From positions 1 to 38,719 of IMG/VR virus record IMGVR_UViG_3300027413_000017: a DNA stretch of 38,719 nt, one strand, 5' to 3'. The notes under the pieces are model-generated. The model made no database searches. It had not been told where the DNA came from and was given only the letters and a program-made list of their open reading frames with translations. Source of the stretch: a virus. Positions 24,917 to 38,719 of the stretch are shown piece by piece. The first letter of the stretch is position 1, and the number at the start of each line of letters is the position of its first letter. Position numbers and translations under genes: made by a program.

Positions 24917-24945
24917 ACAGTATTGTATTTAATCAACAGTGTCAA
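24917..24945 (-). promoter_or_regulatory. Putative sigma70 promoter for the recombination operon
   Basis: TTGACA (24945-24940, minus strand), 17-bp spacer, TACTGT (24922-24917), about 40 bases before the erf ATG; the -35 is perfect, the -10 poor. It overlaps the 3' end of the fusion-glycosyltransferase gene. Confidence 0.4.
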
Positions 24946-27406
24946 CTAAACTATGCCAGAATTCTTTGTCAGTTGTTTTTTGTGCTAGCTGAGAAATGAT
25001 TTCCTGAAACGGCGCCGATCCTTCTATTGTTTGCGAAATTAATTGAAACAATATCCTTCGCTTTTCATTTCTATTTCTATTTAGAAATGGATGCAATGCA
25101 ATTGGAAACGCATTTGTTCCCGCCAGCTCTGCCTTGTAAAGATAATTACTTGAACCAGCCACAACATATTTTGAGCTATTGCAAGCGTCGTAAAAATCAC
25201 TGACATAGCATATTTTTCGACCGTTTAATGTTTTAATTTTACTGTCATCAGGAAAGTAGAACTCGCAGAGATCGTTTGGAAACATAGCCTCCACGAGGTC
25301 AGCGTAGGCTGTGACGTTTAATTTTAACCGATCTAAATCATCAAAATCGCAAACGGCAATTACTGAACCTTGTTCGGCGTATTCCTTTAAAACGCGATCC
25401 TTACCAATTAAACCATCGGCCAATTCCTGAAGACGTTCATTAAAATCCGCCTGGCAAACTGGGAGACAGGCACCGTGGTAAAACAAATCAACCATTAAAT
25501 TTGAAGCGTCCGTAAACAAGAACGAATCACTTGAAAAAATTCCGTTATCTACAATAAACAATGGAATTCGAAGTGCGTTTGCGCGTTTAAAAAACGCTCT
25601 TTCATTTGGCCCGACGGGGGTTGGCATTAGCAATGCCGGCATCCCTCGTTTTAGTTGAGCTACACTTCTTAACGCAACGTTTTTTAATACACCTTGCTCA
25701 TTGAAGGTTCTAAGAAATTTATGAATTGGCCTGACATTGCTCAGGCCGTAGGTAGCAACGGTCCTTGACGTTTCGCTTGGAGGAATGTGCGATCGCTCGC
25801 TATCAGGTCTGAGCCACTGCCGATATAGCCGCTTGTTCCCTAAGTTGCGGTTAGGGTTTCGGGGGTGCCAAAGATGCAACATAAGGCCATCAATGTAAAT
25901 TACATCTATGCCCTCGTTTCGAGCTTGCCCCATAAATTGCGTATCCTCCCAGCCCCATTCGGTGTATCGTTCGTCATGCCCACCTATCGAGTCATATTGC
26001 AATTTAGACAGTAACGTAAGTCCACCGTCTGAACGGTACGCTCGTTTTTTTTGATCAAACTTTTTGCCCTCATGGCCGTCCGCAAAAACACTTTCAGAAT
26101 TGTCTCGATTTAAATACATTGCCTCCGTAAATGGCTTTACGATGCTTTTTGGAGCTTTCCGCAGAGATTCTACCGCCTTTGCTAATGCCTCGTCCATAAC
26201 GACAGAATCAGCGTCCAGCAATACAAGAAAGGTGTCATCCGGCAAATCGGCTACAGCCTGATTAATAAGCCTGCTTTTGTTAAACACTTGGTCGGCCGGC
26301 TGCTCAGGAGTTCTGACAATTTCAAATTTTTCTGATGCCCACTTTTTTACGTATTCAAAACCTTTTCGCCGGCCGCCGCGATCCGAATACGGAATAATTG
26401 CAGCAAAGTTTTTTAAAGGATATTCCATTTGATATTCCTGAACGGGGTTAGGCTGCCAATTTAATAGTTCGCATTTTTTGCAAACTTTTTCCGGCTGGTA
26501 ACTGTTGTACTGGTTAATTGTGACTTTGGTATCGTATTTTGTGCAGTGATATACCTGCTCGATTAACCCTCGCGATCCGCAGGTGCCATGCTTGCGAACT
26601 TCATTAGTTGATTGCCTGTAATCTCCCATGCAGGGAAACCTTTGCGTTTCTGTTTTTATTTCATTTGTATTTTCCGAAGTTTCATGTATTAATTGTCGAA
26701 CTGCGGTTTCCGCATCATCATTCCAAGCTGAATTAGTAAAATTAAGAATCGACGCGCCATTACAACGCTGAGATATTTGGAAGTGCGACATCGGCCGCGT
26801 CATACGGACAAACCCTGCATTTGTCGTGCTTACAGGCTTCCAGTTCATACCTTCAAACGTGTTGCCATAAACGCTTTGCCACAACAGAGCGTTGTTGGCA
26901 ATGTCAAATTCATCCGAAATTTGCAAAACATGCTGCGAATCTAGCAACAATGGAGCATGTGTGTCAAAGTCCATTACGTGCCGATGGCCGCTGTCGTACA
27001 AATGCAGCATCGTTTTCTTTTTTTGAAGCAGCCAATTATTTGCCGGCTGGTAGTCAAGAAGATCGGAGAGCGATTTGTACTCTGCATACATTCCGGCTTG
27101 CAAAGTTTCGGCAGTAACTTCACCTATAAAAAAAACATCGTCATGTATCCAAACAAATTGCTCGTCTACTTGGTCTGACTGGATCGCGGAATGTACTTTA
27201 TGAAATGTGTCGTAAAACGCATGATGTTGCTTTGATGCTATTCTTGGGCAATGTACAAATGTAAAATCAAAGTTTATTTCGGTCGGCAAATCGCCAATTA
27301 CTATTAAATTTGCGTTTCCCTGAAAGTTTTTTTGAACACTGCGTAATGAAAGCTCAAGTTCCGCTCCGTGAGCTGCATCTTTAAAATATGGCCATACAAA
27401 ATCCAT
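24929..27406 (-). CDS. Stealth-like / glycosyltransferase fusion protein
   Basis: 825 aa from the ATG at 27406, one base inside the preceding stop (TAATG) with GGAG upstream; the frame is open further but inside the previous gene. Residues 1-230 resemble Stealth hexose-1-phosphate transferases: a SLRSVQKNF region at 20-28, WIHDDVFF at 86-93 and DTHAPLLLD at 148-156. Residues 255-315 hold five Cys (CX..CX..C...CKKC), a zinc-ribbon-like spacer. Residues 330-530 are a GT2/galactosyltransferase-C domain with LLDADS (397-401) and WGWEDTQF (484-491). Residues 540-825 are unrecognised. Directly coupled to the poly-serine tail gene, so the virion is a candidate acceptor. Confidence 0.8.
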   Translation of the reverse strand: MDFVWPYFKDAAHGAELELSLRSVQKNFQGNANLIVIGDLPTEINFDFTFVHCPRIASKQHHAFYDTFHKVHSAIQSDQVDEQFVWIHDDVFFIGEVTAETLQAGMYAEYKSLSDLLDYQPANNWLLQKKKTMLHLYDSGHRHVMDFDTHAPLLLDSQHVLQISDEFDIANNALLWQSVYGNTFEGMNWKPVSTTNAGFVRMTRPMSHFQISQRCNGASILNFTNSAWNDDAETAVRQLIHETSENTNEIKTETQRFPCMGDYRQSTNEVRKHGTCGSRGLIEQVYHCTKYDTKVTINQYNSYQPEKVCKKCELLNWQPNPVQEYQMEYPLKNFAAIIPYSDRGGRRKGFEYVKKWASEKFEIVRTPEQPADQVFNKSRLINQAVADLPDDTFLVLLDADSVVMDEALAKAVESLRKAPKSIVKPFTEAMYLNRDNSESVFADGHEGKKFDQKKRAYRSDGGLTLLSKLQYDSIGGHDERYTEWGWEDTQFMGQARNEGIDVIYIDGLMLHLWHPRNPNRNLGNKRLYRQWLRPDSERSHIPPSETSRTVATYGLSNVRPIHKFLRTFNEQGVLKNVALRSVAQLKRGMPALLMPTPVGPNERAFFKRANALRIPLFIVDNGIFSSDSFLFTDASNLMVDLFYHGACLPVCQADFNERLQELADGLIGKDRVLKEYAEQGSVIAVCDFDDLDRLKLNVTAYADLVEAMFPNDLCEFYFPDDSKIKTLNGRKICYVSDFYDACNSSKYVVAGSSNYLYKAELAGTNAFPIALHPFLNRNRNEKRRILFQLISQTIEGSAPFQEIISQLAQKTTDKEFWHSLVDTVD

Positions 27407-30051
27407 TACTGCTCCGGTAATTTGCCGCCTGTTATTGGATAAACCTTCCCATCTACCTCTCCCACGATAAGCTTTTGACCCTTTGCTGCAACGGTGCCAG
27501 GCCAATTATTATGCAATTGCTTTGTTTCCCCAGTTTTTTGAATTACACCGTTAATTTCTTTCCACAAATCAACGTATCCCGATTCGCCATTGACCATTCC
27601 ACTTCGCGTGGTTGCTAGGCGAAGGTTAGTAGAAACATTAGATAAGTTGTCACCATTTTGCACGCGGCCGACAGTGCAGGTGTTTGAAATTGAAAACTCG
27701 CCAATTATACATTTAAGAACGCCATTTTGATAAATCCCTAGTCCTGTCGTTTGGTGATCCCACTGTCCAGTTGTGCAATTATAGGTAAAGTGAGCATGAT
27801 CGGCTGTCAGGGGAGAAAGTCCAACTGTCATTACCTGAGTGTTCAACACCTTAATTAAATTACTTGACTGCGTTAAATCTTTCCAATCGTCACTGTTTGC
27901 AGGCCAATTTCCTATATTGTCTTTTTCGCAGGCAATTGAGCCACTTACCCTAACCTCAACTAGTTGATCTCCTGTTGTGATCTCTTCTATAGGGCCACAA
28001 CACTTAAACTCAAGTTGAATTGCAGCGTCGTTTTCAGCCAGTACCTCCGTACAAGGGCAAAACTGCGGGTTGCTTTGTTGGCCAAGGCAAACGTTTGCAC
28101 AATTTATTACATTTTCCGCCTCCACTACAATCCAAGTGTTATATCTCCCAATTCCTCCCACATCTTCCCAACCGTAATCTAAGCAATTTACACCTGTAGG
28201 CGGATTGCCACGATCGCGAAGGCAAATTTTATTGTTGACGCTTCCCTCAATTGTAAGTCCAGTTTTAAAACCTGGATTACTTGCGTGCAACGGATTGTAT
28301 TCAATTTGATATTCTTCGGCACATTCGCAAATTTCGGGTTCGGATTCTGAGCTTGAACTTGAGCTGCTGGATTCGTCACAACAAGAGATAACCTTTGCGA
28401 TGCAGTAAACGGGATACCATTCTGTTTCTAAAATTTCCCAACAATAACAGCATGGCCCAATTGCTTTTGCCTCCTCGGTTTGATACCGCTGAAGGTAAAT
28501 CATTTTTTTGTATTGCCAAATTTCGTTTGTGTCAGGGTGGCATCTGACCTCGCCAACTTCCCAGTAAAGGTTTTCGTCAGGACATGGATCGTCAGAGCTT
28601 GAACTGCTAGAGCTGCTTGAACTGCTAGAGCTGCTTGAGCTGCTAGAGCTGCTTGAACTTGAACTGCTTTCGCTTTCGCTTTCAAACGGTTCCCCCTGTG
28701 GGCGAACCTGTGAATTATGCCACCATGAATCGGAGGTAATAAATCGATTCTGCCATATGTGGCCGTCCGAGGTGTACGTTCCGTCGTCATTGTGAGTTAA
28801 CGATCCAAACTGGCCTACCAACCGATCAAATAAGGCGCTGCATTGCAGTGTCTGGATGTGGTCAAGCCAGCCGGTAGCCGACAGTCCTGCTCCTACAGAA
28901 AAGTCGTAGACTGCTGACCACCATTGAAACATCCGATCCGTTAGGAACTGGTGGTAGTCATATATTTCAGTTTCAGTAAGAGTTAGGTCTTTAATGTTAA
29001 GCGATGACAAAATTGTTGGATACCAACCATCAACCTCAAACGACTGGCTAATCGCGGCACCTGTCCATACGTGAGTTTCGGTTTTTCGCTCGTCGCCATC
29101 CCAATACACAAAATGCACGCCAGATGGGATTGGCGCCGCAGATCGTCCGCCCGAAACGCGGTTTAGTGAACAATCCGTGATTGATTGCAACCATTCGTCG
29201 CTGGCAATTTCTATGTCAAGCGTCGGCGGTTCGGACACACCGCAATATTTTTGAGGCAGAAAATAAAACCTGCACCCTGTGGATGCCATGCAAGCGTCAA
29301 TAACATTGGCAATGCTGTTTGCGCCATCAAATTGCACCTCATTAGGATAAAGAGCAACATCGGTCTCGCCGTTTGAAAAGATTTCATACGCATAGCCTGG
29401 GTCGTAATCCACGGACATGCCGGCCTCTTCAAAAAACTCAACTGCCTTGCCAAACAATTCTTTCCATGATTCGTATGGCTTGTCCCGCAACGGGTCAAAC
29501 AGAGTCGCCTGAGCGTAAAACCTACGGCAAACAAACGGAACTACGCAGATTGCATCGCCTACGCTAGAAGCCCCCTGAGAATCGCTGTCAATGATTGTGT
29601 GAGCCGACAGCATGTACATCTGAAACACGCCAACGTTGATAGACGAGGCAGGAAACGATTGCTGATCGGCCGTTGTTTGGTCGGTCTCGTGAATCTCGAT
29701 GTTAAACGACGCGCCGCCACCTGCCATTCCTGCCACAGCTGAATCATAATCTGACTTTTTCATCACAGCGTAGAAAAACGCATGTCGCGACGCGCCGTGA
29801 AGCGGCCATTGCATTTCGCAAAGTTTTGCTTGTGGCATCCTTGGCCAGTTTGGAGCAGATAGCACAGAGGCTTGCGTGTCGCTGGTGGTGTAATCTACCG
29901 TTGACCAAGAGGCTTCTGGATTGACAGGGTAGCTGTAATACGAGGTGCCCGTTGCTCTGCTAATCGCGTTTGCCATTTCGCGGGTTGGCATTATTCCGTC
30001 ATAAACATCTGCGCCATTGCTTATTTTGTAGCCAACAATGCGAATTGCCAT
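27406..30051 (-). CDS. Large cysteine-rich tail/receptor protein with poly-serine linkers
   Basis: 881 aa, in the tail module, so probably an exposed tail or fibre protein. Residues 1-460 form one domain with no recognised family. A stretch of Glu/Ser followed by 25 consecutive Ser, then DDPCPDE, links to a cysteine-rich section (CC-x-C, SCC, CC pairs). A second tract of eight Ser ends in ESEPE and a further Cys-rich/beta domain to the C-terminus. Disulfides or metal are likely in the Cys-rich parts. TAATG overlap with the glycosyltransferase fusion suggests the Ser tracts may carry sugar (inference). Weak GGA upstream. Confidence 0.75.
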   Translation of the reverse strand: MAIRIVGYKISNGADVYDGIMPTREMANAISRATGTSYYSYPVNPEASWSTVDYTTSDTQASVLSAPNWPRMPQAKLCEMQWPLHGASRHAFFYAVMKKSDYDSAVAGMAGGGASFNIEIHETDQTTADQQSFPASSINVGVFQMYMLSAHTIIDSDSQGASSVGDAICVVPFVCRRFYAQATLFDPLRDKPYESWKELFGKAVEFFEEAGMSVDYDPGYAYEIFSNGETDVALYPNEVQFDGANSIANVIDACMASTGCRFYFLPQKYCGVSEPPTLDIEIASDEWLQSITDCSLNRVSGGRSAAPIPSGVHFVYWDGDERKTETHVWTGAAISQSFEVDGWYPTILSSLNIKDLTLTETEIYDYHQFLTDRMFQWWSAVYDFSVGAGLSATGWLDHIQTLQCSALFDRLVGQFGSLTHNDDGTYTSDGHIWQNRFITSDSWWHNSQVRPQGEPFESESESSSSSSSSSSSSSSSSSSSSSSSSSDDPCPDENLYWEVGEVRCHPDTNEIWQYKKMIYLQRYQTEEAKAIGPCCYCWEILETEWYPVYCIAKVISCCDESSSSSSSSESEPEICECAEEYQIEYNPLHASNPGFKTGLTIEGSVNNKICLRDRGNPPTGVNCLDYGWEDVGGIGRYNTWIVVEAENVINCANVCLGQQSNPQFCPCTEVLAENDAAIQLEFKCCGPIEEITTGDQLVEVRVSGSIACEKDNIGNWPANSDDWKDLTQSSNLIKVLNTQVMTVGLSPLTADHAHFTYNCTTGQWDHQTTGLGIYQNGVLKCIIGEFSISNTCTVGRVQNGDNLSNVSTNLRLATTRSGMVNGESGYVDLWKEINGVIQKTGETKQLHNNWPGTVAAKGQKLIVGEVDGKVYPITGGKLPEQ
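28342..28377 (-). repeat. Second serine tract
   Basis: Encodes eight Ser then alternating Glu/Ser, in mixed AGC/TCA codons. Confidence 0.6.
28594..28668 (-). repeat. 18-bp tandem repeat encoding 25 serines
   Basis: On the plus strand the unit reads AGAGCTGCTTGAACTGCT, four copies with small losses and substitutions. Coding strand uses only TCT, AGC, TCA and AGT. The tract suits length change by slippage. Confidence 0.75.
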
Positions 30052-31032: not shown

Positions 31033-33594
31033 TTATCCTAAAATTGTGGGAGTGCTAACCTCGGCTACAACTACCTCGTTTGCAGCTGGTGTTGTCATGT
31101 CGTATGGCCTTGAACCTGCAATAAGTTTTTCTTGTGCAGTTGGTGTCCTTGCAAGAGCGTACTTTGCATAAAGCTCAAGTGAATTTTCGTACGATTTTTG
31201 ATTGGTTGACAGTTGCGGTGATGCCGGGATTATTTGTTTTTCAACTAAAATTTCTCTAATTCCATTTGGATCAAACCGTTCCTGAGGAAGTTCAGGGATG
31301 GCTGGCATTGCCCCATTGCGAAACGCTTTTACGTAAACCGTTCTATATGTTATTGGCTGGTGCATTTTTACAAAACAAATATTTTCGCCATTGCCCTGCT
31401 CGCTGCTACTTTCACCGTTGCCAACCGTGCTTACTGACGACTGGGGGAATCCGCTTACCGGCACCCCCTGAATTCCCTCATGAGTGCAATACTTGCTTTC
31501 AACCTCGTAGTGGTTGTATTGAAATTGCTGATGCTCATTGGAAATTTCTGAACTTGAATTTGGACTGCTTGTACTGTAGGTAGTGTCTCTTGTGGGGTAC
31601 TTAGCATTTGTTTGACCACGAAAAACCGAAATAATTCCTTTGCCGTAATCAGGGGATAAAACAGAAACTCCGCGATCGTTTGATGTTGGATTTTTAGGTT
31701 CCTCGCCTGTCGGTGCCGAGTAATCGCGTTCTGTAAATGTAAAGTCATCGGTATTATTCCAATCGGTTACAGGTATAGCGTGATACGGAAGGTTTGGCTC
31801 CTGCAAATATGCAGCCATGTGAGCAGCCGGAGTGTTAGAGTCATACGCAAGGGGAGTCGGCCAGCGATCCCAGTTGTAGTTGCTTGCGTAGTCTGGGTTT
31901 GGACTTCCTCCATTTTCCTGCTCACCGCTTTGGGGGTTCGGATTTTGCTCTTGATCTTGCCGATCTTGATCTTCGTCGCCACCATCGGAACTGCGAGCAT
32001 TGGCGTTTTGTGCCGGCAGTTTACCTAGCATTCCAATAATAAACGCGCCGTATTGCTGCGTAATCATTGTTTGCGGATCGCCTTCTTTTCGCTTGTCCCT
32101 GTTTATGTCAGGCGTTCGCAACACGGTGGCGGACACGGTAATGACTGGCTCGTGAAGTTTGTCCTCCACTACAACACCCTTTGGAACAATCCATTTATCG
32201 GCGTTGTCATTGTTTTTGTTGTCAGGGTCGTCGTCGTTGTCTGCAAATTTAAACTTAAGCCGATACTCAATTGTTTTAATTGCGGCCTGAAATAATAAAA
32301 CTTTTGGGGTTCCGGATGCGCCACGAAGAGTAACTGTTACAGTAGCCACGCCTGTAAAACCAAACGCCTCAACTTCTTCCTTGTGAGTGCCAGCCCAGTC
32401 GATCGCCGGCCACGGAGGCGCGGCGTAACGCTGTTGATCAACAACCGTATAATCCATAGACAAACCGTCAGGGCTTTGAATGAATTTCATGCTGACGCGT
32501 TGATAGCCACGCGCTAGGGGGGGAATGCACAGGTGGCGTTTCATTGTGGCAAATGTGTCGGCGGATCGAACTATTAGTTTTCCTTGCGTCACTCTTTGCA
32601 TAAAAAACGCAGCGTCTCGGCTTTCGCTTACTGACCATCGGTTGCTTAAAATGCCAAGGTCTTCCACGCGAACTTCGGTTGATTCCTCGTCTTGATTTGT
32701 CTTGGTTGTATAGTTCGCAGCCCCTTTTGGGTAATAGTCTCGGCTTCGTTCAGGAAAATCCCTGTCGTCTGCCCCATACGGCTTATAAACACTGTCGACA
32801 ATGTAGCACTCAATAGTAAACCGAACGCGAAAATGCTTGTAACCAGTTATGTATGTTACATCGACCTGAGTTGGCTTAGGGCCGTTTTGAGTGTCAAACA
32901 AGTGCATCCAGCCGCCTACAACATCAACGTCCTGGTTGTTGCCTGCCCTAGCTGTATTTTCATTGGCTGGACGTTCCCAATAAGGCAGTACAGCACCGTC
33001 ATTTTGATACGACGTTCTTGGAGTTGCCTGATTCATGTCGTTTGAAAATTGGTATTTATATTGCGCAGCATCGGCATGACCAAGCACGCATAAATTTAGA
33101 CGGCCGGCAGTGTACATGTAAAGCGGCCGACCTCGCCGTGAAAGCAGACCCTTAATTATCGACTCAAGCTTGTATGGATGTTTAGTCTGATCTATGTAGC
33201 GATTATCGTTGTCTCTATTGTGTTGTAAATTTAAGCCAGCAAATCGCTCGTCTATGCCAAAACCTTGTTGATTATAAGCTGGGCCTACACTACTATTTTT
33301 GTCTGGAACGTAACTGCATTCCACTGTCAACTTAACTTTTCGGCCAAGTTGATCTGTTTTTGACGGATCGTACAAAACTTCGGAATTAAATTCCTTTACT
33401 TCACAATCGGCCAATATTATGTCGTTGTATACAACAGTTGTGCCCCGTCCGGTAAGAACCGCCGCGCTTGCATTACCAGCTCCTAAAGTCCTTTCAACAT
33501 TAGCCTGTGTTACTCTTCCGTTAAGCGGCCGATCAACTGTTTCCCAAGTGCCTTGAACGTTTTCATAATCCCACTTGCTGTTTACGTTGGTCAT
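31033..33594 (-). CDS. Large tail/baseplate protein (853 aa)
   Basis: TAATG coupling to the preceding gene with GGAGG upstream. Alternating beta-rich blocks (VKLTVECSYVPD, VDVTYITGYKHFRVRFTIECYI, VATVTVTLRGASGTPK) and a disordered Asp/Gln/Asn-rich middle (about 515-555). No enzyme motif. Position after the putative tape measure suits a distal tail or central baseplate protein. No exact family recognised. Confidence 0.65.
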   Translation of the reverse strand: MTNVNSKWDYENVQGTWETVDRPLNGRVTQANVERTLGAGNASAAVLTGRGTTVVYNDIILADCEVKEFNSEVLYDPSKTDQLGRKVKLTVECSYVPDKNSSVGPAYNQQGFGIDERFAGLNLQHNRDNDNRYIDQTKHPYKLESIIKGLLSRRGRPLYMYTAGRLNLCVLGHADAAQYKYQFSNDMNQATPRTSYQNDGAVLPYWERPANENTARAGNNQDVDVVGGWMHLFDTQNGPKPTQVDVTYITGYKHFRVRFTIECYIVDSVYKPYGADDRDFPERSRDYYPKGAANYTTKTNQDEESTEVRVEDLGILSNRWSVSESRDAAFFMQRVTQGKLIVRSADTFATMKRHLCIPPLARGYQRVSMKFIQSPDGLSMDYTVVDQQRYAAPPWPAIDWAGTHKEEVEAFGFTGVATVTVTLRGASGTPKVLLFQAAIKTIEYRLKFKFADNDDDPDNKNNDNADKWIVPKGVVVEDKLHEPVITVSATVLRTPDINRDKRKEGDPQTMITQQYGAFIIGMLGKLPAQNANARSSDGGDEDQDRQDQEQNPNPQSGEQENGGSPNPDYASNYNWDRWPTPLAYDSNTPAAHMAAYLQEPNLPYHAIPVTDWNNTDDFTFTERDYSAPTGEEPKNPTSNDRGVSVLSPDYGKGIISVFRGQTNAKYPTRDTTYSTSSPNSSSEISNEHQQFQYNHYEVESKYCTHEGIQGVPVSGFPQSSVSTVGNGESSSEQGNGENICFVKMHQPITYRTVYVKAFRNGAMPAIPELPQERFDPNGIREILVEKQIIPASPQLSTNQKSYENSLELYAKYALARTPTAQEKLIAGSRPYDMTTPAANEVVVAEVSTPTILG

Positions 33595-34646
33595 TAATAA
33601 CCTCCCGATGTTCTTGCCGGACCCTGTGGCGTTCCAACGTTACGCGAAAACTTCTTTGCAGCCTGCTGTGCCTTGTCGTCTTTTTTAGGGTGAGCCATGT
33701 TTCCTAAAAACGATTGCTGCAACAAATCTAATTGTGTCTGATGTTTTTGAGCTTCCTTAATTTCCTTGGCTATGTAATCTCCCATCATTTTCCCAAGCTG
33801 ACCGGAAAAATAACCACCGCCAGTCATTAGCCCAGCACCCTGCCCAATAATGCCGCCGTAATCTCCCATTAAATTAGTCGCACCTTCATACGCCGCGGCC
33901 TCGATGTCATAGGCCACTGAGGTAAGCTGATTCATGGTTTTTTGGTAAACTGCGCGAAAAGGCTCCTTTGCTTGCTCAAGCCGGTTCCTAGAAATTGTCA
34001 TGCTATATTCGGATTCCGAGGTGTACTGCGCCCTGCCAATCTTGCGCTGAATATTGCCGACTTTTATTTGAGCGTCGCCTACAGCTGTTAGGCCGCTGTA
34101 CTTCCCCAACTCCTGGGCTTTTACAAAATCATAATGGTTGTTTGTGAACTGCCGAATTCTTGAAATGTAACCGCCAATTGCCGGTATAAAACTAGCCATA
34201 AATTGACCAAACCGCGATATTACATCCCTGCTGTTCAGTCTTGTAATTTCAGGGTCAAAACCTTGGCTAGGACGAGAGGTGTTGTCTCCGCCAATTGGCG
34301 GAATTCCGCTAGTCGGCCTTGGCGTGCCCCCGTTTACGGTAGCAGCTACGCTGTTGGTTGTATTTGAATTATTTGCGTTTTGCAGTGTCGTACTGCTGTA
34401 GTTGTTAGTCGTAATCGTTTGCTGCGTGCTCAAAGGAACGCTGCCGGCGCGTCGGGCTGCACGGGCTGCACGGGCACCGTACCACTGAGCTTCCCCGTGC
34501 CTAGTTAACGATTGTCCGCCTCTTAAAACGCCAGCTCCGATTCGGCCGCCCGTCCGTCTAAGCGCAGCCGCGCCCATGCTGGCGATCGCTCGGCCGCCTA
34601 CGGCTCGAAGTGCCCCTAACGCTAGGCCAATTAATGGTACTGCCAT
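33594..34646 (-). CDS. Tape-measure candidate / internal tail protein (350 aa)
   Basis: GGAG 8 bases before the ATG. Gly/Ala-rich, hydrophobic N-terminus (LIGLALGALRAVGG..., IASMGAAALRR), a Thr/Asn-rich linker at 70-120, then long helices (KAQELGKYSG..., FRAVYQKTMNQLTSVAYDIEA) and a Gly-rich hydrophobic stretch (GGIIGQGAGLMTGGGYFSG) near 265-285. It directly follows the frameshifted chaperone genes, where tape-measure proteins usually sit, but is short; a tail of only some 50 nm would be expected if so. A membrane-interacting ejection protein is the alternative. Confidence 0.5.
   Translation of the reverse strand: MAVPLIGLALGALRAVGGRAIASMGAAALRRTGGRIGAGVLRGGQSLTRHGEAQWYGARAARAARRAGSVPLSTQQTITTNNYSSTTLQNANNSNTTNSVAATVNGGTPRPTSGIPPIGGDNTSRPSQGFDPEITRLNSRDVISRFGQFMASFIPAIGGYISRIRQFTNNHYDFVKAQELGKYSGLTAVGDAQIKVGNIQRKIGRAQYTSESEYSMTISRNRLEQAKEPFRAVYQKTMNQLTSVAYDIEAAAYEGATNLMGDYGGIIGQGAGLMTGGGYFSGQLGKMMGDYIAKEIKEAQKHQTQLDLLQQSFLGNMAHPKKDDKAQQAAKKFSRNVGTPQGPARTSGGY
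34288..34301. repeat. Iterated palindrome, perfect coding copy
   Basis: CCGCCAATTGGCGG read as P-P-I-G-G in the 350-aa gene. Confidence 0.75.
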
Positions 34647-34648
34647 TG

Positions 34649-35211
34649 TTATTTCTCCGCTTGCCTTAGGTACTGGGCTTCGTCTTCACTCATGGCAATT
34701 GATGAATAAATAATATCAGGAGTTTTGCCGGTTTGCATGTAATTTTGTGCAAAAATCGCGGCAAGCCGGCCAATTTCAACCCTGCGATACCACATTCGTG
34801 ACATTGAACATTGAAGCGCGCAATAGATTTCGTAATGCTCATTGTAAAGCTTAAGAAGATCAACTCCCGTCAATCCAATGGCGTCGATGAATTGCTGATG
34901 TTTTTTTTTAAATCATCGCAATATTCGCAAAACAGCTCATTAAGCGTAATGACCTCCTGCATTGTAAGGCCACGACCTGTTGTGTCGTCAAAATCAGGGC
35001 AATTAAATGCCTGCCTGAAGCAATCGACGCATATTTGATACGCCTGCACCGAAACTTCCTTGTCGGTAGATTGCGCCAGCTTTGGATGCTTTTCTGCATT
35101 GTAAACTGGATGTGTATCAATTTTGTTTAAAATTGCTAACGGATCGCCATAGCGAACCTTTACGCCGTCGTAATATTTAAAGATGTTTCTGTTTCGAGTG
35201 TTCCAAAACAT
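34649..35211 (-). CDS. Tail assembly chaperone, -1 frameshift fusion product
   Basis: If ribosomes slip by -1 on the run at 34900-34912, residues 1-104 of the 113-aa protein are joined to 83 residues of the overlapping frame (HQQFIDAIGLTGVDLLKLYNEH... to YLRQAEK), giving about 187 aa. The -1 frame is closed just upstream by TGA at 34915-34913 and the only start-like codon downstream is a TTG at 34873 without a good ribosome binding site, so the second frame has no obvious life of its own. Position between a tail-tube candidate and a tape-measure candidate matches the gpG/gpGT pair of lambda-like phages. Confidence 0.72.
34870..35211 (-). CDS. Tail assembly chaperone, unshifted product
   Basis: 113 aa, MFWNTRNRNIFKYYDGVKVRYGDPL..., AGGCGG upstream of the ATG. 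Three Cys in the middle (CVDCF, FNCPDF). Ends shortly after the slippery run with NISNSSTPLD. Adjacent to the tail-tube candidate. Expected to be the more abundant of the two chaperone forms. Confidence 0.65.
   Translation of the reverse strand: MFWNTRNRNIFKYYDGVKVRYGDPLAILNKIDTHPVYNAEKHPKLAQSTDKEVSVQAYQICVDCFRQAFNCPDFDDTTGRGLTMQEVITLNELFCEYCDDLKKNISNSSTPLD
34900..34912 (-). promoter_or_regulatory. -1 ribosomal frameshift (slippery) site
   Basis: Coding strand TTTAAAAAAAAAC, read TTA AAA AAA AAC in the zero frame. It contains overlapping heptamers of the X XXY YYZ type (T TTA AAA and A AAA AAC). Confidence 0.78.
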
Positions 35212-35253: not shown

Positions 35254-35889
35254 CTATGGGTTAGCTGCCGGAACAATTGTATTGTCCGGCGATGTCCTAT
35301 CTTCGATTCTTTCGCCAATATTTGGGATATTACAGGGTACACGATACGCGGTAAATGGAATACGCCACGCAGCCCACTTTGTACCTATTCCGCACGCAAT
35401 TGGCTCAGTGTTTATGCAACACCAAAAATTTCGCACGTCTTCTGCTCGTTCCGTATTAGCGCAAACCCGAATTGGGTTATTTTGAAACATGTTTTGGCCA
35501 ATTTTATATTGCGAATCTATGCCGTAAGTTGGCGCAGTAAGTGCCGTTCCCGTTCTCGGGTCTAACGCTCTGCCTCGCAGTAGATCAAGCACAGAGTCAT
35601 TCCAAGTTGTTAGCTCAATAACAAACTTTACGGTATGGCCAAGGTACTGCGTCTCCACAGGTGGACCTTGTTCGCCTCCGTGCCGATCGGAATGAATGTC
35701 GTTCATAAACGGCTGATTTTGAAATTCAGTCGTGTCAGTGCTTGTGCCAAGACGAAGGGCGTTTGCTGGAGTATTAATTTGATAATTTGTCCCATCAAAT
35801 GTCCAAGATGGCACCCAAATTACCCAGTCAATTAATCCGTAGGCACGCGGTGTAAAGCAGCCAGGCGAGTAATCGTCATTTGTAGTCAT
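35254..35889 (-). CDS. Major tail (tube) protein candidate
   Basis: 211 aa, coupled by TAATG to the connector gene. Beta-rich: WVIWVPSWTFDGTNYQINTP, LGHTVKFVIELTTWNDSVLDLLRG, WAAWRIPFTAYRVPCNI. The LxHTVKFVIELTTWN strand-turn followed by LLRG resembles tail-tube proteins; position before the chaperones agrees. It carries four Cys (two as CC near 160), unusual for this role. A neck protein is the alternative. Confidence 0.5.
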   Translation of the reverse strand: MTTNDDYSPGCFTPRAYGLIDWVIWVPSWTFDGTNYQINTPANALRLGTSTDTTEFQNQPFMNDIHSDRHGGEQGPPVETQYLGHTVKFVIELTTWNDSVLDLLRGRALDPRTGTALTAPTYGIDSQYKIGQNMFQNNPIRVCANTERAEDVRNFWCCINTEPIACGIGTKWAAWRIPFTAYRVPCNIPNIGERIEDRTSPDNTIVPAANP

Positions 35890-36431
35890 TACTGAAAGCC
35901 AGTCCTTCTATCTCGATTGCCAGTATCGCCCCTGTGAGGAAAGTATCGGCCAATCATGTTGTCGGATATTAAATTTCTAACGTTAAGCAAGCTGGCATTT
36001 TCACTGTTTCCATTGCCTTCGTCGCTAATCATGCCGGCTGCCACATTGGCATCAATTGAAAATACGTCGTACCCACTGCTTAGTTGCTTGAGGTGATCCT
36101 CAGCCTCCGCAGCAAGCTGTTGCAACAGGTCTGTAAATGTCCCTGGCCGACGCCTTAAAAGCCGTGTCATTGCAATCGTGCAAACAATGCTTTTAAGGTG
36201 TGCAAGTGAATTGTCGGTCAAATCGGTTTGCAAATTGACTAAGGTGTAGCGATTGCCATGACGCAAAGCCGCCTCAACGCGGCCAGAGGCGTCGTCTAGC
36301 GCCGATTTGACGTTTATGTGGTCAACAATGGCGGTTCGACTAAGCTCTTGGCCGTCGTCAGTGCATAGCTGCCCGATTGTTCTAATGTCAAATCGGGCAG
36401 CCAAATCAACTGGATCGGCGTACCTTGGCAT
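35889..36431 (-). CDS. Head-tail connector, Mu gp36-like (DUF1320 type)
   Basis: 180 aa. Starts MPRYADPVDLAARFDIRTIGQLCTDDGQ, the typical Y-A-x-x-x-D-L-x-x-R-F...I-x-Q-L-x-D opening, then SALDDASGRVEAALR helix and SIVCTIAMTRLLRRRP, which match gp36-like connectors. AAGG upstream. Such proteins join the portal to the tail completion proteins. A Gly/Asn-rich C-terminal third is extra. Confidence 0.75.
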   Translation of the reverse strand: MPRYADPVDLAARFDIRTIGQLCTDDGQELSRTAIVDHINVKSALDDASGRVEAALRHGNRYTLVNLQTDLTDNSLAHLKSIVCTIAMTRLLRRRPGTFTDLLQQLAAEAEDHLKQLSSGYDVFSIDANVAAGMISDEGNGNSENASLLNVRNLISDNMIGRYFPHRGDTGNRDRRTGFQ

Positions 36432-38043: not shown

Positions 38044-38706
38044 CTACTTTGCCAACGCCTCATCAGTGAGAGACTCCAGCTCCGACCAAGTGTGGAACTT
38101 ATTACTGTTTGCGGCGTTTAGCTGGATTTCATTGCACTTGGCAAACCATGCAGCGTTTCGCTCAACTGAGTGATCAGCGTTTCCGCGATAGGTAGATGTT
38201 TGATGCCCCGATGGAATTGAATTTCGAGTCACGCTAGTCTGCTCAAGTCGATGTCCAATGCCTTCCAAGTGCTCCAATTCTTGAGCAAACTTGTCGTGCG
38301 AAACGGAATCACCTAGCAAGCGAGACTTTTCTGCCTGCGGATCAAGGATCGCTGAATAACGCGAACAAACTTGGTCGATTTTTTGCGAGCGATCCATGTC
38401 AATTTTTTCTTGCTCATTTTGACGCATCTGCTGAGCAACGTTGCCCAATGTTTTCTGCATCAGCTTGTGACTTCTTAAAAGAGCATTGTGCTTGGTTTCA
38501 AGCGCTGAGTATCGACTTACCGAAACTCCCTTTCGCGGCCGGTTACTGTACATCTGTGGTTCTTCCTCATATTGGCTAGTGGACATGGGTGCCATGCCGG
38601 CACCGTACTGATCGGAGTCTGCTTGGTCGTCAAATTCAACATCTTCACTTGGAGGCGTTACAATTCCGCCACCGCTGGCCTCTCCAAACATGGCATTTTG
38701 ATCCAT
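38044..38706 (-). CDS. Scaffold-like coiled-coil protein (start may lie beyond the edge)
   Basis: 220 aa from the ATG at 38706, but that ATG has no Shine-Dalgarno and the frame stays open to the edge (GESEMDQNAMF), so the true start may be outside. Acidic N-terminus, then a coiled coil at about 65-115 (YSALETKHNALLRSHKLMQKTLG...NEQEKIDMDR), then a helical C-terminal end. Position before decoration and capsid genes suits a head scaffolding protein or the C-terminal part of a protease-scaffold fusion. Confidence 0.6.
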   Translation of the reverse strand: MDQNAMFGEASGGGIVTPPSEDVEFDDQADSDQYGAGMAPMSTSQYEEEPQMYSNRPRKGVSVSRYSALETKHNALLRSHKLMQKTLGNVAQQMRQNEQEKIDMDRSQKIDQVCSRYSAILDPQAEKSRLLGDSVSHDKFAQELEHLEGIGHRLEQTSVTRNSIPSGHQTSTYRGNADHSVERNAAWFAKCNEIQLNAANSNKFHTWSELESLTDEALAK

Positions 38707-38719
38707 TTCGGATTCGCCA

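Follow-up and report, generated by a model that had tools for sequence, protein, structure and literature searches.

A probable lambda G/GT-like tail assembly chaperone pair joined by -1 recoding in an orphan phage

Two overlapping reading frames in a virus record of 38,719 bases, the whole of which was analysed and is referred to here as the window, are best explained as two tail assembly chaperones of the lambda G/GT type that -1 recoding links to each other. We put the probability of this reading at about two in three, and prefer it because the coding potential of the second frame, its missing Shine-Dalgarno sequence, the slippery tract and the gene order all agree. A G/GT frameshift had been proposed in a first-pass annotation of the same DNA, and it stands as the best explanation, while the identities of the neighbouring genes, the novelty of the site and the role of the tract as sole entry point prove weaker than was stated there.

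The first of the two frames is a 113-aa ORF at 34870–35211 (minus strand), recognised by its codon usage and its Shine-Dalgarno sequence, and its zero-frame product is a putative G-like tail assembly chaperone. The tract TTTAAAAAAAAAC (TTT-A9-C; 34900–34912, minus strand) lies 11 codons ahead of the stop of this ORF and is read in the zero frame as TTA AAA AAA AAC. At this point the coding strand runs ...TGC GAT GAT TTA AAA AAA AAC ATC AGC..., and the ORF ends in GAT TTA AAA AAA AAC ATC AGC AAT TCA TCG ACG CCA TTG GAT TGA. Directly 5' of the tract, the -1 frame is closed by a TGA (34913–34915, minus strand), after which it stays open for 87 codons and a TAA (34649–34912, minus strand), or for 83 codons when counted from the CAT at 34900, with the TAA at 34651–34649. 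This open stretch is the proposed T-like extension, and the next ORF begins with an ATG at 34646, 2 nt past the TAA. The first-pass annotation had placed the tract at the end of the 113-aa frame, and the -1 frame behind this TGA and then open for 83 codons; we found the same tract, stop and length, and all of its coordinates are correct on the minus strand. The layout is that of lambda G/GT: two frames overlap, the second lies in -1, and its presumed entry point is close to where the first one stops.

The second frame is part of a gene, as its codon usage is gene-like on a score trained on the long genes of the window. Past the G stop, the -1 frame scores +0.163 per codon, which exceeds 80% of real-gene windows of the same size. 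Not one of the 1227 wrong-frame windows free of stops reaches this value, and the other five frames across the same DNA all score below 0. The 113-aa ORF is itself gene-like, at +0.122 per codon. Within the overlap, the -1 frame has 15 codons whose score is not gene-like; this value is the difference of two T scores and, over so short a stretch, carries little weight.

The start sites of the second frame are weak, as the first-pass annotation had claimed. Its sole early start is a TTG (34871–34873, minus strand) that overlaps the G stop as TTGA and lacks a Shine-Dalgarno sequence, the pairing energy with the anti-Shine-Dalgarno being +0.4 kcal/mol, as compared with -5.5 kcal/mol for G and -6.6 kcal/mol for the 350-aa gene that follows the pair. 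The following start, an ATG at 34804, is likewise without a Shine-Dalgarno sequence, and its use would lose more than one third of the extension. Thus, as in lambda G/GT, the second frame is protein-coding without a Shine-Dalgarno initiation site of its own, and the weakness of both starts therefore favours entry by slippage.

Alternatively, the second frame may encode a separate 74-aa protein that is made by re-initiation at TTG 34873. The overlap of this start with the stop of the 113-aa ORF is exact, the coding suffix that scores highest in the -1 frame begins close to it (near 34885), and the operon has other stop/start overlaps, at 35889 and 33594. However, any TGA stop creates an NTG in the -1 frame, such that an overlap of the TTGA type is expected by chance about three times in four and is not strong evidence. 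Overlapping genes here do have a Shine-Dalgarno sequence where TTG 34873 has none, an example being the gene after the 350-aa gene, with -11.2 kcal/mol at 33594, and re-initiation leaves the triple heptamer described below unexplained. We consider a re-initiated 74-aa protein quite improbable. The tract had also been claimed as the sole entry into the second frame; ribosomal slippage on it is the favoured entry, with re-initiation at TTGA and slippage by RNA polymerase as competitors.

The tract holds three overlapping heptamers of the X_XXY_YYZ type in the zero frame, T_TTA_AAA, A_AAA_AAA and A_AAA_AAC, and so places a slippery heptamer inside the overlap, as in lambda G/GT. In-frame heptamers of this type occupy 0.9% of positions within genes, and about 9% of 12-codon stretches have at least one; a triple overlap was seen at 1 of the 9740 in-frame positions checked, which is the tract. 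A nine-long A/T run alone is unremarkable, with 1 seen in the window and 3.1 expected under a first-order Markov model. In E. coli, A_AAA_AAG is far more shift-prone than A_AAA_AAC or A_AAA_AAA (PMC5009743). A low level of slippage would nevertheless fit, because the ratio in lambda is 30:1 (PMC5009743). Downstream of the tract, no stem-loop more stable than in shuffled sequence was found (z -0.1) under an energy model that does not predict pseudoknots, and the sequence directly upstream has no Shine-Dalgarno-like stimulator. Within 34888–34925 (minus strand), a hairpin at 34922–34891 is predicted around the tract, which lies in its loop (-7.1 kcal/mol, z -3.1; none of the shuffles was equally stable). 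We claim no role for it, because the stretch was picked post hoc after a larger fold had been seen, and because a ribosome reading the tract would hold the hairpin open.

In the mechanism that we infer, most ribosomes would finish the 113-aa G-like protein at its stop, while a minority would slip by -1 on the tract, at T_TTA_AAA, A_AAA_AAA or A_AAA_AAC. The slipped ribosomes would read about 83 further codons, and the resulting fusion of G and T would be about 187 aa long. If the roles are those known in lambda, G may coat the tape measure, and the T part may bring in the subunit of the tail tube. From the codons, ribosomal slippage after decoding of AAC would give the junction LKKN-HQQ, with the predicted tryptic peptide NHQQFIDAIGLTGVDLLK, while slippage at either of the two earlier heptamers, or an A added to the mRNA, would give LKKK-HQQ, with the predicted tryptic peptide HQQFIDAIGLTGVDLLK. 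The two peptides would therefore tell the mechanisms apart in part.

The added A refers to a further explanation, in which RNA polymerase slips on A9 and adds one A in some transcripts, so that normal translation yields the same G-T fusion. Transcriptional realignment has been associated with runs of more than seven A's, and Thermus thermophilus dnaX makes use of nine (PMC3711429); in Citrobacter rodentium tssM1, 11 A's give 20–25% transcriptional slippage (PMC4256274). The present tract resembles these two cases in that a run of 9–11 A's goes with two protein lengths per gene, which are predicted ones here, but the genes are unrelated. That the tract is the only nine-long A/T run of the window and that a ribosomal stimulator was not found at it are also consistent with polymerase slippage, which we nonetheless hold to be improbable: the tract has three proper zero-frame heptamers for tandem slippage, and the established tail chaperone cases of the lambda type are ribosomal (PMC5009743). 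The two kinds of slippage may also act together. It is unlikely that the fusion is made mainly by the polymerase rather than by the ribosome; were this so, transcription would set the chaperone ratio that tail assembly needs. The A9 tract makes the pair a fair test case for weighing ribosomal against transcriptional slippage within one gene.

A run of nine A's is also the likeliest spot for an indel error, and the sequence is a single assembled copy. With A10 in the true genome, the two frames would be one unbroken gene of about 187 codons, and the break would reflect a contig error or a recent mutation. Against this, the remaining window is densely coded and has no plainly broken gene, and the break sits at the very gene position at which a programmed -1 shift is found in other phages. 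We judge such an error or mutation to be very improbable.

Recoding as the link between the two frames, our preferred reading, is in keeping with the gene order. On the same strand, upstream of the pair, are a head protein (PHROG 673 match), an ORF of capsid size (352 aa) and a head-tail adaptor (35889–36431, minus strand; Phage_Mu_Gp36 PF07030, E 2.9e-06; PHROG 195, E 1.6e-11). Then come a 211-aa ORF (35254–35889, minus strand), the pair, and the 350-aa ORF (33594–34646, minus strand), which starts 2 nt past the -1 frame stop. The position of the pair past the adaptor fits G/GT. From the same order we propose the 211-aa product as a candidate tail tube protein and the 350-aa product as a candidate short tape measure protein. 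The first-pass annotation had named tail tube, pair and tape measure as a matching synteny; the order does fit, but the tube and the tape measure are candidates by position.

Family matches near the pair are limited to the upstream head-tail adaptor and head protein. For the products of the 211-aa ORF, the 113-aa ORF, the -1 frame and the 350-aa ORF, neither Pfam nor PHROGs nor NCBIfam gave an informative match. Comparison of G, T and the fusion with known chaperones gave no relevant match, which says little, because such proteins are known to be very divergent. Structure prediction gave an unusable model for G (pLDDT 40) and likewise for the 211-aa product, neither having relatives behind it. 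For the 211-aa product, the viral-contig scan yielded no relative and solved structures gave matches at chance level only; a tblastn search of the 350-aa product against phages returned nothing. A tape measure protein usually scales with tail length at 1.5 angstrom per residue, and a tape measure of 350 aa would correspond to a tail of about 50 nm, a short yet possible length.

In searches of viral contigs, genome contigs or phages, no relatives were recovered for G, T, the tube candidate, the capsid-sized protein, the 350-aa, 853-aa and 881-aa products or the adaptor, nor did searches with several proteins find a relative that covers the region of the chaperone pair. The single-protein searches of contig collections used exact 8-residue patterns, and distant or unlucky relatives are missed by these; thus, their outcome is not evidence of absence. 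For the terminase, 582 relatives were recovered, of which the best 80 were used. Among these best 80 of 582, the only close relative is on a 4.3-kb contig without tail genes (L002; terminase 95% identical), on which a nearby 372-aa gene is 79% identical. No clear chaperone pair emerged when the ORF pairs of the terminase loci were surveyed. Two contigs (L082 and L083) matched the DNA pattern for CDDLKKN, but are not relatives.

Long-tailed phages widely conserve frameshifting between G and T even though the sequences have little similarity (PMC5009743), and a paper on a survey tool gives a count of 2397 joined tail assembly chaperone genes for 3679 SEA-PHAGES genomes (PMC10885494). Like lambda gpG/gpGT, the present pair has a short ORF with a proposed -1 shift near its end, and an extension frame that lacks a good start and lies beside the presumed tape measure gene (PMC5009743). 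It differs from lambda in its tract, which is TTTAAAAAAAAAC rather than GGGAAAG, in the lack of detectable sequence similarity, and in its candidate tape measure of merely 350 aa. The A-rich site had been taken for a different version of the lambda one. It is not new: AAAAAAC has already been proposed for the tail chaperones of the Acinetobacter phages Loki and IME_AB3 (PMC5313236), of the Caulobacter phage phiCbK and its relatives (PMC3556154) and of the Paenibacillus phage Dragolir (PMC6003738). The present site shares with these proposals the A_AAA_AAC heptamer and the gene pair; unlike them, it has A_AAA_AAC as the last of three overlapping heptamers in A9. The case is well observed and probably real, which would make this orphan phage an ordinary instance of a known mechanism. 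As such, it would bring the G/GT arrangement to a lineage of orphan phages in which hardly any structural protein has a match in the libraries searched, and would show such a pair to be recognisable from layout alone; the joined product would then belong in the annotation of this genome.

Rfam and tRNA scans gave no hits. At the two ends of the window, the ORFs (3–401 and 38044–38718, minus strand) would join in frame if the record were circular; an end repeat of 13–200 bases was not found, and the sequence may represent a nearly complete, permuted genome. Downstream of the tail genes, a large product with a galactosyl transferase-like domain is encoded at 24929–27505 (minus strand; PHROG 1721, E 4e-20). 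The 881-aa product (27406–30051, minus strand), for which there is no phage match, has long serine runs followed by cysteine-rich stretches, a combination seen in Planctomycetes proteins.
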